IMG/VR virus record: IMGVR_UViG_3300023196_001769
Location: 1-22,308 of that record
Length of the DNA: 22,308 nucleotides
Direction: 5' to 3' (one strand)
Origin: a virus
A model generated the notes under the pieces. That model was given only the letters and a program-made list of their open reading frames with translations, did no database searches and was not told the origin of the DNA. Made by a program: the position numbers and the translations under genes. Positions 1,617-12,500 of this stretch are shown here, one piece after another (within the stretch, counting starts at the first letter, position 1; each line of letters starts with the position of its first letter).

Positions 1617-1649
1617 AGTAATTCTTATAAATATGCGTGCGTAGATTGA
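1512..1649 (+). CDS. Candidate small membrane peptide (45 aa)
   Basis: ATG at 1512 opens a 45-residue frame ending at TGA 1647-1649. The first 15 residues, MFILVVILAFILSPL, form a convincing single transmembrane or signal-anchor segment. A hydrophilic tail follows, with positive residues (RKNVNH) right after the membrane segment and then mixed charged residues. A late promoter lies 62 bases upstream. The stop codon overlaps the -35 box of the next promoter. There is no good Shine-Dalgarno sequence. Against it: the frame is short, and it contains the direct-repeat copy and the second late promoter, so it could be chance. The hydrophobic run right at the start codon is the main argument for it. 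A small inner-membrane protein, for example one acting at lysis or superinfection exclusion, is possible but unproven. Confidence 0.4.
   Translation: MFILVVILAFILSPLRKNVNHPADKDSETQLRSFISNSYKYACVD
1626..1633 (+). promoter_or_regulatory. T4-type late promoter TATAAATA
   Basis: A second exact TATAAATA lies 70 bases upstream of the 58-aa gene at 1704 and 12 bases before an early sigma-70 promoter, so that gene could be read both early and late. The surrounding ten bases, TTATAAATAT, are identical to the first site at 1441-1450. Confidence 0.55.
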
Positions 1650-1674
1650 CAATATCGCTTAAGCGTTCTATACT
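1646..1674 (+). promoter_or_regulatory. Sigma-70 promoter with palindrome in spacer
   Basis: TTGACA (1646-1651), a 17-base spacer, then TATACT (1669-1674): near-consensus for host RNA polymerase. The spacer holds a perfect 10-bp palindrome, CGCTTAAGCG (1656-1665), placed where a repressor would block polymerase. The predicted transcript begins near 1681 and leads into the 58-aa gene at 1704 with a leader of about 23 bases. Confidence 0.8.
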
Positions 1675-1703
1675 TATTAAGTCACACCACCAGGACACCA
1701 CTT

Positions 1704-1880
1704 ATGTCAGTCGCTATCAGTCAGGCACAAAAGCAACGTTATCGCATCACGTTGGATTTAGAAGTGATGGAAGATTTTGATCCGCATCAGATTAACTGGG
1801 AGAATATCTTTGAACTTGAAGGATCTGAGAAGGTGATTGACAGTTATGTAGAGGACTTAAGTAATCCTGCCAGCTGGTGA
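1704..1880 (+). CDS. Conserved cyanophage-type small protein (58 aa)
   Basis: ATG at 1704 to TGA at 1878-1880 encodes 58 residues starting MSVAISQAQKQRYRITLDLE, with the characteristic segment DPHQINWENIFELEG and the end YVEDLSNPASW. I recall close relatives in many T4-like cyanophages, where it is a conserved protein of unknown function. The predicted fold is a short strand-helix-strand. It has no membrane segment or cysteines. It is the first gene after a strong sigma-70 promoter, so early expression is likely, with a late promoter just upstream as a second input. The position suggests a host-takeover or regulatory role, which is inference only. Confidence 0.8.
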   Translation: MSVAISQAQKQRYRITLDLEVMEDFDPHQINWENIFELEGSEKVIDSYVEDLSNPASW

Positions 1881-1899
1881 TATTGCAGGGGGGCGGGTG

Positions 1900-1928
1900 T
1901 TGACAGTCCCGCAAAAGTATGCTATAGT
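1900..1928 (+). promoter_or_regulatory. Sigma-70 promoter
   Basis: TTGACA (1900-1905), a 17-base spacer, then TATAGT (1923-1928). It starts 20 bases after the stop of the 58-aa gene, just downstream of a G-rich run (1888-1897). Transcription from about 1935 would give a leader of about 140 bases before the ATG at 2073. Confidence 0.8.
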
Positions 1929-1934
1929 TCTTAT

Positions 1935-2072
1935 GCGTGTCACAGCAGTTATGGGCGGTTCGTTGATGCCGTTGCCCGTCGCGATGCCGTTTATAAAAAC
2001 AGCTAACTACCCTAACCTACAGAGGTGACAAAACGCGAGAGTGATTCCACTTTCATAAAAAAAAATTTTGCC
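1935..2072 (+). other. GC-rich leader with repeated GATGCCGTT
   Basis: The stretch after the promoter is much richer in G and C than its surroundings (about 1948-1990) and carries GATGCCGTT twice (1965-1973 and 1983-1991). GGGC (1953-1956) could pair with GCCC (1974-1977). It may be a structured 5' leader of the small membrane-protein gene or a fragment of transferred DNA. One frame reads FVDAVARRDAVYKNS before a stop but has no start codon. Confidence 0.3.
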
Positions 2073-2213
2073 ATGAAAAAAGAACCCTATTGGAATTTTT
2101 GGAAGGTTGTATTTGCAGGATGGATAATAAGATATCCACATATTGTATTTCGCCCCTTGATGTTTCTGGTAGGGATTTTTCTTGTCTTGATATATAATGC
2201 AATAGTTAATTAA
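2073..2213 (+). CDS. Small membrane protein (46 aa; 62 aa if GTG 2025 is used)
   Basis: The frame is open from GTG at 2025, but I prefer ATG at 2073, giving MKKEPYWNFWKVVFAGWIIR as the start. The extra residues upstream (TKRESDSTFIKKNFA) look like untranslated leader, and an A9T4 tract precedes the ATG. The protein has an aromatic amphipathic N-terminus (YWNFWK), then hydrophobic segments VVFAGWII and IVFRPLMFLVGIFLVLIYNA. The latter is a clear transmembrane helix of about 19 residues, and a short hairpin of two helices is possible. I have a loose memory of similar small membrane proteins in cyanophages, with no known function. It is probably expressed early from the sigma-70 promoter at 1900. 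Confidence 0.65.
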   Translation: MKKEPYWNFWKVVFAGWIIRYPHIVFRPLMFLVGIFLVLIYNAIVN

Positions 2214-2223
2214 ATTCGTTAAA

Positions 2224-2247
2224 AAAATTTCGGAGGAAAAAAATTTT
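2224..2247 (+). promoter_or_regulatory. Strong ribosome binding site GGAGG within an A/T inverted repeat
   Basis: GGAGG at 2232-2236 lies nine bases before the TTG start at 2246 and is the best Shine-Dalgarno sequence in the window. It is flanked by AAAATTT (2224-2230) and AAATTTT (2241-2247), which can pair to leave the GGAGG in the loop and the start codon in the right arm. All seven pairs are A-U, so the structure would be weak. Confidence 0.5.
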
Positions 2248-2452
2248 GGCCAGTAAGATTTACCACATCTATGCTAAGGGAGAGTGTTTATATAATAATC
2301 TTAATGAACAACAATTCAGAGAAACGTGGAGTACCTTGCAGGGTATGGTAGGATTAATGAAGACTGAGTATGCGGCAGAGGATTTATCCTACGAGACTGT
2401 GCAACTATTAAATGAAGGATACGGAGAACCGTCCGGATCTCCATCATATTGA
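2246..2452 (+). CDS. Conserved cyanophage-type protein (68 aa), TTG start
   Basis: The product begins MASKIYHIYAKGECLYNNLN and continues with a helical segment (FRETWSTLQGMVGLMK) and DLSYETVQLLNEGYGEPSGSPSY. Proteins with the pattern K.YHIYAK..CLY..L.E..F..TW..L..MV......DLSYE.V are, as I recall, common in T4-like cyanophages with no assigned function. TTG at 2246 is chosen because it sits nine bases after a strong GGAGG and because the frame has no earlier start and no ATG at the conserved N-terminus. The stop TGA at 2450-2452 overlaps the -35 box of the next promoter. Confidence 0.8.
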   Translation: MASKIYHIYAKGECLYNNLNEQQFRETWSTLQGMVGLMKTEYAAEDLSYETVQLLNEGYGEPSGSPSY

Positions 2453-2477
2453 CAACTACATAACACTGAACTATAAT
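2449..2477 (+). promoter_or_regulatory. Perfect consensus sigma-70 promoter
   Basis: TTGACA (2449-2454), exactly 17 bases, then TATAAT (2472-2477): the textbook consensus, so probably very strong with host polymerase. The -35 box contains the stop codon of the 68-aa gene. The transcript would start near 2484, about 17 bases before the glycosyltransferase ATG at 2501. Confidence 0.85.
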
Positions 2478-2500: not shown

Positions 2501-3277
2501 ATGGCTAAAGGATTTACTGTTAAGACTGTTCCACCAAAGAAGGCACAAGGCCCTGAGTGGGACATCGATGCTATTAAAGCACGAATGAAAGGAAAGAAAA
2601 TTGTCTTCTGTCTTCCAGGACGGGGATGTTCATATACTTTTCTGAAAAACTTTGTACAACTTTGTTTTGATCTTGTACAAAATGGAATGAGTATTCAGAT
2701 CAGTCAAGATTACTCATCAATGGTTAACTTTGCACGTTGCAAATGTCTTGGAGCAAACGTGTTGCGCGGCCCTGATCAGATTCCATGGGACGGTAAGTTG
2801 GAGTATGATTATCAATTATGGATTGATAGTGATATTGTCTTTACCACTGAAAAGTTCTGGCAGTTGTGTGACTTGTCATTAAATGCTGAGGGCGAAGAGA
2901 AACAGATTACTTCTGGTTGGTATTCTACAGAGGACGGACAAACTACTTCCGTTGCTCACTGGCTTGAAGAAGATGACTTCCGTAAGAACGGAGGTGTGAT
3001 GAATCATGAAACTGTCGATTCGATTTCAAAGCGTAAGAAGCCTTTCACAGTTGACTATGCAGGGTTTGGTTGGATCATGATTCAGAACGGAGTGTTTGAG
3101 AACACTGCGATTAAGTATCCATGGTTTGCTCCTAAGATGCAAGTCTTTGAAAGTGGTGCAGTTCAGGACATGTGTGGTGAAGATGTGTCATTCTGTTTAG
3201 ATGCTATCGAAGCAGGTTATGAGATCTGGTGCGATCCTCGGATTCGTGTTGGCCACGAAAAAACTCGGGTTATTTGA
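2501..3277 (+). CDS. Glycosyltransferase-like protein, GT-A fold (258 aa)
   Basis: This 258-residue protein shows the layout of a GT-A glycosyltransferase: a first strand KKIVFCLPGRG (residues 32-42), a helix, then YDYQLWIDSDIVF (103-113) with the metal and nucleotide-sugar-binding DxD as D109-S110-D111. The acceptor-side acidic motif GEDVSF (226-231) follows, and the final strand ends in a histidine (RVGHEKT, H252), as in many retaining GT-A enzymes. It should be cytoplasmic and transfer a sugar from a nucleotide donor; the acceptor is unknown and could be a virion protein, phage DNA or host envelope glycan. The perfect sigma-70 promoter immediately upstream argues for strong early expression, which fits modification of the host or of phage components better than a purely structural role. 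Conserved homologues in cyanophages are recalled, not checked. Confidence 0.75.
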   Translation: MAKGFTVKTVPPKKAQGPEWDIDAIKARMKGKKIVFCLPGRGCSYTFLKNFVQLCFDLVQNGMSIQISQDYSSMVNFARCKCLGANVLRGPDQIPWDGKLEYDYQLWIDSDIVFTTEKFWQLCDLSLNAEGEEKQITSGWYSTEDGQTTSVAHWLEEDDFRKNGGVMNHETVDSISKRKKPFTVDYAGFGWIMIQNGVFENTAIKYPWFAPKMQVFESGAVQDMCGEDVSFCLDAIEAGYEIWCDPRIRVGHEKTRVI

Positions 3278-3446: not shown

Positions 3447-3469
3447 CATAACAATGACACTATGTTATG
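3447..3469 (+). promoter_or_regulatory. Hairpin enclosing a start codon
   Basis: CATAACA (3447-3453) pairs perfectly with TGTTATG (3463-3469) across a nine-base loop. The right arm contains the ATG (3467-3469) of the 217-aa gene. In mRNA this would hold the start codon in a stem and could lower or time its translation. The stem is A/T-rich, so the effect may be modest. Confidence 0.35.
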
Positions 3470-4120
3470 GCAGCATTAATTTGCAACCTCCCCTCGGTTG
3501 AAGTATGGGTAAGGAAAGAATACTTAACTGATCATCAATCTGGTTGGGGCGAATATGTAAAGGGCGTTTGGGTATCGGCTAAGTCGATTCCTGGACGCGC
3601 TTTTTATTTTGAGACATACTTACCAGAGTATGCAGCAATGTATGATAAGTTACCTATTAGTGCTTTTCTTTCGGAACCAGTAAAACCTGATCCAGATATG
3701 AGTTTACAGAACCTTCAGTTTTGGAACTGTATGGATTATGGAATAGTAGCTATACAGAAACAATTCATTGGTAGTATGGATTATGAAGTCTATACACGCG
3801 ATCATGGCACAATGAAAGGTACATATGTTTGCACTATTGATAATTACCACCAAGATCCTGATGTAATTGATTATGCAACAAGTGAAAACCCTTCAGAACA
3901 TAAGTCACATAATCTTATTGAATTAGTTAATGGACAATATTGTTTGTATCCTAATAATAGAACAAGAATATTTGATAATAGTTTGACACCAGAGAATCCA
4001 AAGATACCTGATTTTAAAGTATCAACTGAGTATTATCAAGTAGAAAATGGTTATGATCGCATGGGATTGGGTGATCAAGAGAGTTACTTCTGGAAAACCG
4101 CTCAGGAACGAGATAAATAA
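3467..4120 (+). CDS. Conserved cyanophage hypothetical protein (217 aa) upstream of gp25
   Basis: The 217-residue protein begins MAALICNLPSVEVWVRKEYL and carries segments WVSAKSIPGRAFYFETYLPE and YDKLPISAFLSEP, then a central part with YEVYTRDHGTMKGTYVCTID, then IPDFKVSTEYYQVENG near the end. I recall this protein as widely conserved next to gp25 in T4-like cyanophages, always labelled hypothetical. It looks like a soluble alpha/beta protein without membrane segments. Its constant neighbour, the baseplate operon, suggests a virion or assembly role, but the sequence does not prove that. Its last codons (GATAAATAA) double as the late promoter for gp25. No Shine-Dalgarno sequence is visible; the start lies in a small hairpin. 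Confidence 0.8.
   Translation: MAALICNLPSVEVWVRKEYLTDHQSGWGEYVKGVWVSAKSIPGRAFYFETYLPEYAAMYDKLPISAFLSEPVKPDPDMSLQNLQFWNCMDYGIVAIQKQFIGSMDYEVYTRDHGTMKGTYVCTIDNYHQDPDVIDYATSENPSEHKSHNLIELVNGQYCLYPNNRTRIFDNSLTPENPKIPDFKVSTEYYQVENGYDRMGLGDQESYFWKTAQERDK
4112..4119 (+). promoter_or_regulatory. Late promoter GATAAATA for the gp25 operon
   Basis: GATAAATA matches the NATAAATA form of late promoters described for T4-like cyanophages. It overlaps the stop codon (4118-4120) of the upstream gene and lies 22 bases before the GTG start of gp25. The site ahead of gp8 has the same sequence and nearly the same spacing. Confidence 0.7.
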
Positions 4121-9500: not shown

Positions 9501-12500
9501 ATTTAATTCTGGCGAAACTATTACATATCTGGGAAATGCAGATGGTTTAAGTAATGATCAAAATTATATTGTTACTGAAGTAGATAATAATAACTTTAAA
9601 CTTTCATCCGTTGGTGTTGGTACAACTGCAAAATTATTCTATTATAATACAAATCAATTTGTAAATATTGAATCGATTGGATCAGGATCTCATACATTCA
9701 AATATCCTACTATTTCTGTCAACATCACTGGTGAAATTGGTGTTACAACTTTTAGTGGACAAGACTTTAATGCTAAACTTCAACCCGTATTCAGAGGATC
9801 TATTGAATCTGTTTATTTGACTGATAATGGTACTGGTTATGGTTCCAGTGATATCATCAATTATAATAAACAACCAGTATTTGATCTTTTAAGTGGAAGA
9901 GATGCGGAATTACTTCCTATTGTAAACAATGGTAGAATTGAAGAAGTACTTGTAACAAGTAGTGGTTATGAATATAATTCTATTCCTAATCTTATTGTCA
10001 ATGGTGAAGGTAGATTTGCCAAACTTACCCCCGTAATTAGTGGTGGACAAATTGTTAGAGTTATTGTAGATAATCATGGCATTGATTATACAAACACAAC
10101 TACTGTAAGCGTTGTTGCTAGTGGTAGTAATGCAGTTTTCAGTGCAGATATTAATAGATGGACAGTTAACCTATTTGAAAAATATCAGGACATCATTAGT
10201 GAAGATGATGGTATTTTAGATGCATCATCTATAGATGAATATGGAATTGAGTACACTCATTTATATGCTCCTAGAAAATTAAGACAATCTTTATTTGGTA
10301 AAACAATTTCTTCTACCGATGGAATAAAATATGGAGTTGGCGATTTAAGACTTGATACATCAAATGTAGAAACAGAAGCACAGTTTCACTCCCCAATCAT
10401 TGGTTGGGCATATGATGGAAATCCAATCTATGGCCCCTATGGTTTTGATACTCCAACTGGTGGAACAATCAAAGCACTTAGAAGTGGTTATAGTATAACA
10501 CAATCGGTAAATCGCCCTGCATTATCAACATGGAAAAAAGGATTTTTCTGTGAGGACTATAAATTTACAGGAGACGGAGATCTTGATGAACATAATGGTA
10601 GATATTGTTTAACACCTGACTTCCCTAACGGTGTCTATGCTTACTTTGCGACGATCAGCGACGGATCAGTTGAAAGTTCTGGGCCTTTTGAAAACTTTAA
10701 GTTACCTCAGTATCCATATTTTATTGGTAACAAATTTAAGTCCAAACCTAATACCTTTAATTATCAAAATGATTCCTATCAAGGAAAGTATGATATTGTA
10801 TCCAACGAATGGTTTAGAAACACCACGCCATATGGATTGACTTTGAATAATGTATCATATGATTTTGTAACTGAACCATACAAAATTTATGATGAAGTAA
10901 TTGACATAACATCAACGTCTGTTGGAACAATTGATAGTGTTGGTATAGTAACTGGTGGTGATGGATATCAGGTAGGAGACAGAATAGTATTTGAGTCGCT
11001 TCCTGGTGCAACTGCAGCAAAAGCAAAAGTTTCTCAGGTTCTTGGTAAAGTTGTAAACAACATAAGTGTTGCATCTTCAAGTATTTCTGAACTAGAGATA
11101 GTACCAATTGATTCATCAGGAAGATTTGTTGCTTTCTCTACATCTCCTCATAGATTTACAAATTCTAATTTAGTTACTTTATCTGGATTTAATACATCTA
11201 TTACTTTAACTAATAAATCATTTAATATTGGAGTATCTACAAACTTCTATAACTTATCAACTGGAGTTGGAACAGCGGGTGCTACTGGCATCGTAACGTA
11301 TTTTTCAATTGGTGGTATTATTGATCGTGGAGATCTTTCAATTAGAGAAAATGATATTTTTGAATTGGGATCTGAACAAGTTCGCGTATTGAACGTTGAC
11401 AAACTTAGTTCAAGAATAAGAGTTGAAAGATCCGTCAACGCAACAGTATCCTCTGCACACACTGCAACAACATCTATTGTAGAACAAAGTCGCAAATTTA
11501 CCTTTAATTCTAATAGACAAAATAAAGTAAACTTTGAATTAAATAAACAGATTTATTTTGATCCTAAAGAAACCGTTGGTGTGGGAACACTTACAGGTGC
11601 AGGAGTAGGATCAACTATTTTCTTCTCAAATCCTGGATCAGGTATTAGTCAAGTTTTTGTTGAAAATAGAAGTTTATTCCTACCTAACCATAATTTGTTA
11701 ACTGGTGATATTGTTAAGTATCATAATGGAGGAGGAGATTCTGTTGTAGTTACGGTTGATCCCACTGGTTCGACAACTTATAGTATTGCGAATGAAACAC
11801 CTCTGTATGTTGCTAAAATATCTGATAATATTATCGGAGTCCAGACTTACAGAGTTGGAGTTGGTTCTACAGGTACTTTCGTAGGTATCGCTGATACAAC
11901 AATGAATACTGGACTTCTATTCTTTACAGGAATAGGTACTGGTACAAATCATAGCATTCAAACAATCAAGTCGAATGTTGTAAATGCTGAGGTAACAAAG
12001 AATACTGTAACTGTATCAACTGCATCAACGCATGGTTTGACAATAGGTGACAAAGTTCAAATGAACGTCACTCCAGGAATTACGACAACTGTTACTGTTA
12101 AGTATAATGATCAGAATAGAAGAATTGTATTTAATCCACTTGGATTTACAACTACTGGTGTAAGCACTAGTCAAAATACAATTACTATCGATGATCATGG
12201 ATTTAAATCGGGAGACAAAGTAATTCTCGATGCAAATCCAGCAGCGACAGGATTAGAAGATCAGAAAATTTATTACATTTCTAGGTTCTCAAAAGATAAA
12301 GTAAGACTTTGCAATTCAAAATTTGAAGCAGAAAAATTTAACCCGAAATTTGTTTCGATTGATATTGCAAGAAAAGGAACGTTACTTCCGATTAATCCTA
12401 CTTTAAATGTATTTGCAGGGAATACTGTTATTTTCAATCTGGGAGATTCTACTTTATCTTCTCTAAATGCTTCTACTCTATACTCTGCATTTGATTTAAA

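Follow-up and report, generated by a model that had tools for sequence, protein, structure and literature searches.

The DNA analysed here is a stretch of 22,308 bases (the window) assigned to a T4-like cyanophage of the Kyanoviridae (PF23790, E = 1.6e-51; gp25, PF04965). In a nucleotide search the nearest annotated phages are Bellamy, S-SM2, S-SCSM1 and SynMITS9220M01, at ∼74–76% identity. The region of interest runs from ∼1400 to 2500, and 3′ of it, on the same (+) strand, lie gp25 (4142), gp6 (4543) and a gp7-like gene (6592, encoding 4063 aa). The genes of the region itself are also on the + strand. The first is gene 1704 (1704–1880), which encodes 58 aa belonging to phrog_12516 (phrogs E = 2.6e-30), a family without assigned function; orthologues are found in 315 IMG/VR stretches. 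Following this, ORF 2073 (2073–2213) encodes a 46 aa product resembling a small membrane protein (MKKEPYWNFWKVVF…), with no family match and with tblastn matches in 112 places of the compared loci at 36–100% identity. Gene 2246 (2246–2452) has a TTG start and belongs to phrog_2626 (phrogs E = 1.9e-15), also without assigned function, and there are 301 tblastn matches to it in the compared loci. The strand then continues into gene 2501 (2501–3277), encoding 258 aa of phrog_1574 (phrogs E = 6.6e-119), again without assigned function. Its product contains an invariant DSD-containing stretch and has weak similarity to the glycosyltransferase phrog_34859 (E = 2.1e-6), which weakly suggests a glycosyltransferase-like protein. 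Its structure gives no guide to function, as the AlphaFold model is of low confidence (pLDDT 51.5) and there is no sequence relative in the PDB. The initial annotation proposed genes of this cassette as candidates for host takeover, and such a role is a guess. Further downstream, the names given to the 217-aa protein encoded at 3467–4120 clash; it has no Pfam match, its PHROG name is ferredoxin, and it is called purM in several phage records but ferredoxin in the RefSeq versions of those records.

Three rightward sigma-70 promoter sequences are located on the + strand of the region, each with an exact −35 box and a 17-base spacer. The first (1646–1674; TTGACA-17-TATACT) precedes gene 1704. The second (1900–1928; TTGACA-17-TATAGT, with an extended −10 TG) reads into a conserved non-coding sequence, termed here the CTAC element. 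The third (2449–2477; TTGACA-17-TATAAT) precedes gene 2501. All three had been reported in the initial annotation, and their sequences, spacing and coordinates are exact on re-examination, as is the description of the 2449 site as a perfect consensus (12/12 matches). Each had also been placed before a different gene, which is correct for the 1646 and 2449 sites; at 1900, by contrast, ∼145 bases of conserved non-coding sequence come before ORFs 2073 and 2246. Sites with an exact −35 box, a 17-base spacer and a −10 box matching in at least 5 of 6 positions occur four times on the + strand, compared with 0.13 expected per strand under a first-order Markov model of the window. A general scan that includes weaker promoter-like sites finds 98 against 83 in shuffles, slightly over chance, and the signal is thus confined to the top-scoring sites. 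The fourth equally good site, at 1111 on the + strand, lies inside ORF 888–1160 and is lost in the aligned relatives. It acts as an internal negative control, and since it is not conserved it is probably due to chance or to coding.

The relatives compared were drawn from IMG/VR and from phage records; they were picked by similarity, are phylogenetically non-independent and span down to ∼38% identity in gene 1704, and in nearly all of ∼105 of them a site with 10–12 of 12 matches lies 53–60 nt 5′ of the ATG orthologous to that of gene 1704. The corresponding site of gene 2501 lies ∼50–58 nt 5′ of the orthologous ATG in ∼150 loci. Most sites of both types match at 11–12 of 12 positions while their spacers vary, and the distinct promoter sequences number 91 upstream of gene 2501 and 57 upstream of gene 1704. 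Because position and hexamers are kept while the spacers diverge, the 1646 and 2449 promoters are evidently under selection. For the 1900 type, a site with at least 10/12 matches ends 58–100 nt 5′ of the core of the CTAC element in 72 of 134 nonredundant copies, compared with 0.35 after shuffling. The same promoter triplet is present in the cultured phage S-SM2 at 58240, 58738 and 59175, the sole 1-kb stretch with three exact −35 sites in that 190-kb genome, although clustering in a single genome is weak evidence because a comparable cluster arises in 7.6% of random placements. A palindrome (CGCTTAAGCG) in the 1646 spacer was considered as an operator and rejected, as it is kept in near-identical contigs only. 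Further upstream, at about −120 to −80 of the gene 1704 orthologues (∼1580–1620 of the window), an inverted repeat CTGATA…TATCAG surrounds a second TTGACA, which in many relatives precedes TATAAATA at a near-constant distance; the repeat and this TTGACA might form an operator or an alternative promoter.

Two of the rightward promoters are accompanied by late-type motifs. The T4-type late promoter motif TATAAATA occurs exactly in the window at 1442 and 1626, and the second of these (1626–1633, + strand) is 12 nt 5′ of the −35 box of the 1646 promoter, where it would act as a putative late promoter. Its ATAAATA is present at the same place in 74 of 79 relatives. The motif also precedes structural genes of S-SM2, which commonly follow NATAAATA or CTAAATA, both near the late consensus of T4; S-PM2 is reported to have a comparable one (PMC2988020). 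In the 2449 promoter a TACATA of the TANATA type (2457–2462, + strand), with a predicted late function, is nested within the 17-base spacer. TANATA is found in 30 of 33 nonredundant spacers of this type (shuffled mean 1.8, maximum 7), whereas all 20 spacers from 1646-type promoters lack it. In S-SM2 only one of 29 strong sites carries a nested TANATA, and this is its 2449-type promoter. These sequences suggest that the 2449-type promoter is an early promoter with a late one nested inside it, the late status of the motif being uncertain since it is mostly TACATA, and just 7 of the 33 spacers have the exact TAAATA seen before structural genes. Such dual early and late wiring has a precedent, as a motif combining the sigma-70 −10 and gp55 sites has been proposed 5′ of the cyanophage psbA gene (PMC5931967).

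A further conserved sigma-70 promoter, missed in the initial annotation, faces leftward on the − strand (1570 to 1542; TTGACA-17-TAGAAT, with an extended −10 TG). It has at least 10/12 matches in 59 of 73 relatives (shuffled expectation 1.3), located in almost every case between −127 and −134 relative to the ATG of gene 1704, and the sequence GTGATCTTAGCG (+ strand) at its predicted start is also recurrent in relatives. The promoter is overlapped by a + strand ORF (1512–1649), and this is present in two loci only, so coding constraint is rejected as the cause of the conservation. Leftward of the promoter comes a non-coding stretch, beyond which the genes are on the opposite strand. An AT-rich element TTAAAAAACGTTTTTAAATGGTATTATAAATAT, to which no strand is assigned, occupies 1418–1450 and includes the TATAAATA at 1442–1449; it is a candidate unwinding element. 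It has 0–4 mismatches in 16 of 68 relatives, the remainder being more diverged, and it is identical in the window and in two relatives (L101 and L164) that carry DnaA boxes. An inverted repeat, GGGTAAGATGTAAGTA-ATTA-TACTTATGTTTTACCC, at 1370–1411 is directly 3′ of ORF 1161–1349, for which it probably serves as terminator; read on the minus strand, it could stop the leftward transcript as well.

Many of the relatives have DnaA boxes in this part of the locus. The sequence TTWTCCACA occurs 51 times between −420 and −130 of gene 1704 across 49 nonredundant loci, where 0.48 are expected, and 20 loci have at least two boxes, which was seen in none of 200 simulations. The form TTTTCCACA, the DnaA box usual in cyanobacteria (PMC4674748), occurs 45 times, compared with a mean of 0.2 and a maximum of 7 for permuted 9-mers. 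Over the 600 bases upstream there are 1.6 boxes per kb, compared with 0.009 per kb in the rest of these loci. The boxes are clustered in 22 of the 49 nonredundant relatives; there are none in the other 27, nor in the window. They come after the AT-rich element in 29 of 68 loci, the window not being one of these. In many relatives the leftward promoter is thus directed towards both an AT-rich stretch and clustered boxes. Boxes are also found 5′ of the CTAC core in the records of S-RIM2, S-ShM2, P-SSM7 and P-TIM68. S-PM2d has a sole cluster of TTTTCCACA boxes in its genome, with three boxes in 34 bp (9689–9722) in a non-coding gap ∼4 kb downstream of the ORFanage deletion junction, and on resequencing of S-PM2 the read density was raised 2–3-fold downstream of that junction (PMC4503421).

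These observations bring into consideration a locus that serves primarily as a replication origin and secondarily as a gene cassette, a plausible reading that stops somewhat short of probable. The leftward transcript from 1570–1542 would cross the AT-rich element, where host DnaA at TTTTCCACA or an RNA–DNA hybrid would open the duplex and prime synthesis of the leading strand, and the same origin would include the CTAC core along with the rightward promoters. The excess of boxes and their identity with the usual cyanobacterial box argue for this, as do their placement 5′ of the core in the four phages named above, the single S-PM2d cluster near the junction with raised read density, and a leftward promoter with nothing ahead of it but non-coding sequence, followed by opposite-strand genes. 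Set against it are the absence of boxes from the window and from over half of the nonredundant relatives, and a GC skew across S-SM2 that has no turning point at this locus; for these reasons the window is not classed as a DnaA origin. In addition, T4 starts replication by R-loops that are independent of DnaA, and the boxes may instead serve transcriptional control or DnaA titration. The authors of the S-PM2 study take the step in coverage as terminal redundancy (PMC4503421). An additional function of the region as a replication origin is plausible for the family and less so for the window. More tentatively, a host-DnaA-type origin with its boxes, AT-rich element and leftward promoter may be family-wide at this place, coupled to the early promoters and to the new, ultraconserved CTAC element, with the lineage of the window having kept the promoters and the AT-rich element and lost or replaced the boxes.

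The CTAC element (1935–2045, + strand) is located 3′ of the 1900 promoter, with its core CTACCCTAACCTACAGAGGTGACA at 2007–2030. Of 99 regions picked by their flanking genes alone, 92 contain the core CCTAACCTACAGAGGTGACA at two mismatches or fewer, and it is retained even where gene 1704 is just 39–50% identical. In other lineages CTACCCTAACCTACA is constant and what comes after it is swapped for one of several discrete alternatives, namely AAGTGTTACGAAAGCGA (as in P-SSM2), AAGGTTCCCAAACGA, CTGTATGTCTTTTTCGA and ACGAACCCAAAACGCGA. Within contigs L303–L422, each alternative 3′ half following CTACCCTAACCTACA is common to one contig group. One copy of the core is present in S-SM2 and none in the whole S-PM2d genome, so this part of the region is not universal. 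In the P-SSM2 locus compared (L298) ∼960 bases without annotated genes (1182–2139 of that locus) lie 5′ of the element, and by eye these contain several unannotated small ORFs and terminators. A search with the Rfam 15 covariance models gives no match to the element, the sole sub-threshold match (RT-3) being elsewhere, and it is thus rejected as a known RNA. RNAalifold gives only a 4-bp hairpin (ACCU/AGGU). A structured RNA is rejected too, since the alignment has no convincing covariation or compensatory base changes and the element is only weakly more stable than shuffles. Both a transcribed single-stranded motif and a DNA site fit the element.

It is possible, if on balance doubtful, that the CTAC element works as an RNA, transcribed early from the 1900 promoter as a small RNA or as a 5′ leader. 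Its single-stranded CUACCCUAACCUACA, together with the lineage-specific 3′ half, would pair with an RNA of the host or of the phage, or bind a protein. The orientation of the core is always that of the promoter, at the 58–100 nt distance given above for 72 of the 134 copies, and the core stays the same next to changing downstream genes. That the constant part is followed by one of a discrete set of 3′ halves suggests a partner that is not the same in every lineage, and in the main type GAGGUGA appears complementary to the anti-Shine–Dalgarno region of 16S rRNA. On the other side are the Rfam and folding results, and a site acting at the level of DNA would suit the same data. Much less likely is a short leader peptide ending NYPNLQR-stop, in which translation or ribosome stalling would account for the conservation. 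Of the 134 copies, 80 keep the frame open over at least 20 codons, compared with 42 after shuffling, but many copies have in-frame stops or no start codon. The core is moreover free of synonymous variation, invariant sequence runs beyond the stop codon, and the last codons are replaced in several lineages. With the reading frame not maintained across copies, the peptide is rejected.

That the AT-rich genome produced the three rightward consensus matches by chance, as the near-random frequency of weak promoter-like sites might suggest, can hardly be credited and is ruled out by the comparison with relatives, since top-scoring sites greatly exceed chance, 1646 and 2449 are kept in place and sequence in more than 100 relatives, and 1900 is kept as a promoter 5′ of the CTAC core. 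The motifs are present, hold their positions and are conserved. The region from ∼1400 to 2500 is very probably a conserved transcription-control hub of T4-like cyanophages, directly 5′ of the baseplate operon. It is probably a hub for early transcription that would be re-used late. Early and late activities and transcript boundaries can be predicted as follows. On phage entry, host sigma-70 RNA polymerase would fire rightward from 1646, 1900 and 2449 and leftward from 1570 to 1542. The 1646 promoter would give a short early transcript for gene 1704, that at 1900 a short early transcript comprising the conserved non-coding leader and then ORFs 2073 and 2246, and that at 2449 a short early transcript for the glycosyltransferase-like gene 2501. 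Two of the promoters would be wired for late re-use, by the gp55-type TATAAATA beside 1646 and the TANATA nested in the 2449 spacer. The initial annotation described an early-expressed cassette next to the late structural operon. That description is partly borne out. The promoters are indeed selected and the hub is just 5′ of gp25-gp6-gp7; the hub is probably not purely early, however, given the TATAAATA conserved by the 1646 site and the TANATA inside the 2449-type spacer, and that description had included neither the leftward promoter nor a non-coding first product from the 1900 promoter.

The hub can be compared with several known systems. Early promoters of cyanophages have been predicted as sigma-70 sites (PMC3037559), and those of T4-like cyanophages (S-PM2, Syn9 and the genomes of Sullivan et al. 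2010) are likewise of the TTGACA-17-TATAAT type before small uncharacterised genes. Unlike these, the hub packs three rightward and one leftward conserved sites into ∼1 kb, and two of its sites carry adjacent or nested late-type motifs. The upstream region of psbA in cyanomyoviruses is similar in that sigma-70 −35 and −10 boxes and a gp55-type site are proposed in one region, to serve early and late expression (PMC5931967). The late-type motif of the hub differs in being inside the 17-base spacer, 5′ of a glycosyltransferase-like gene. The hub would thereby be a compact case of one gene wired both early and late, through a late-type motif nested in a sigma-70 spacer. The PeSL elements of T4-type phages (Arbiol et al. 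2010; Comeau et al. 2014), as cited in PMC4503421, combine an early promoter with a stem-loop terminator behind it and occur as multiple copies within a shuffling region. They resemble the hub in having an early promoter and a short conserved intergenic sequence by variable small genes; compared with that account, the CTAC core is single-copy in S-SM2, has only a 4-bp hairpin and keeps a fixed place 5′ of the baseplate operon. The hub exposes a non-coding motif, present in most of the relatives examined, where annotations are blank or hold spurious small ORFs.

For the origin of replication, T4 is the textbook case of initiation without DnaA, and no replication start site of marine T4-like cyanophages was found in the literature searched. 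The cyanobacterial oriC consists of TTTTCCACA boxes and an AT-rich stretch (PMC4674748), and the same box is clustered in the 22 relatives described above, in many of them by an AT-rich stretch. The locus differs from that oriC in belonging to a T4-like phage, in adjoining sigma-70 promoters without dnaA or dnaN, and in the box-free state of the window. Among its relatives, a locus in which DnaA boxes of the host type are accompanied by an AT-rich element and a leftward promoter is a specific candidate for the place where replication starts.
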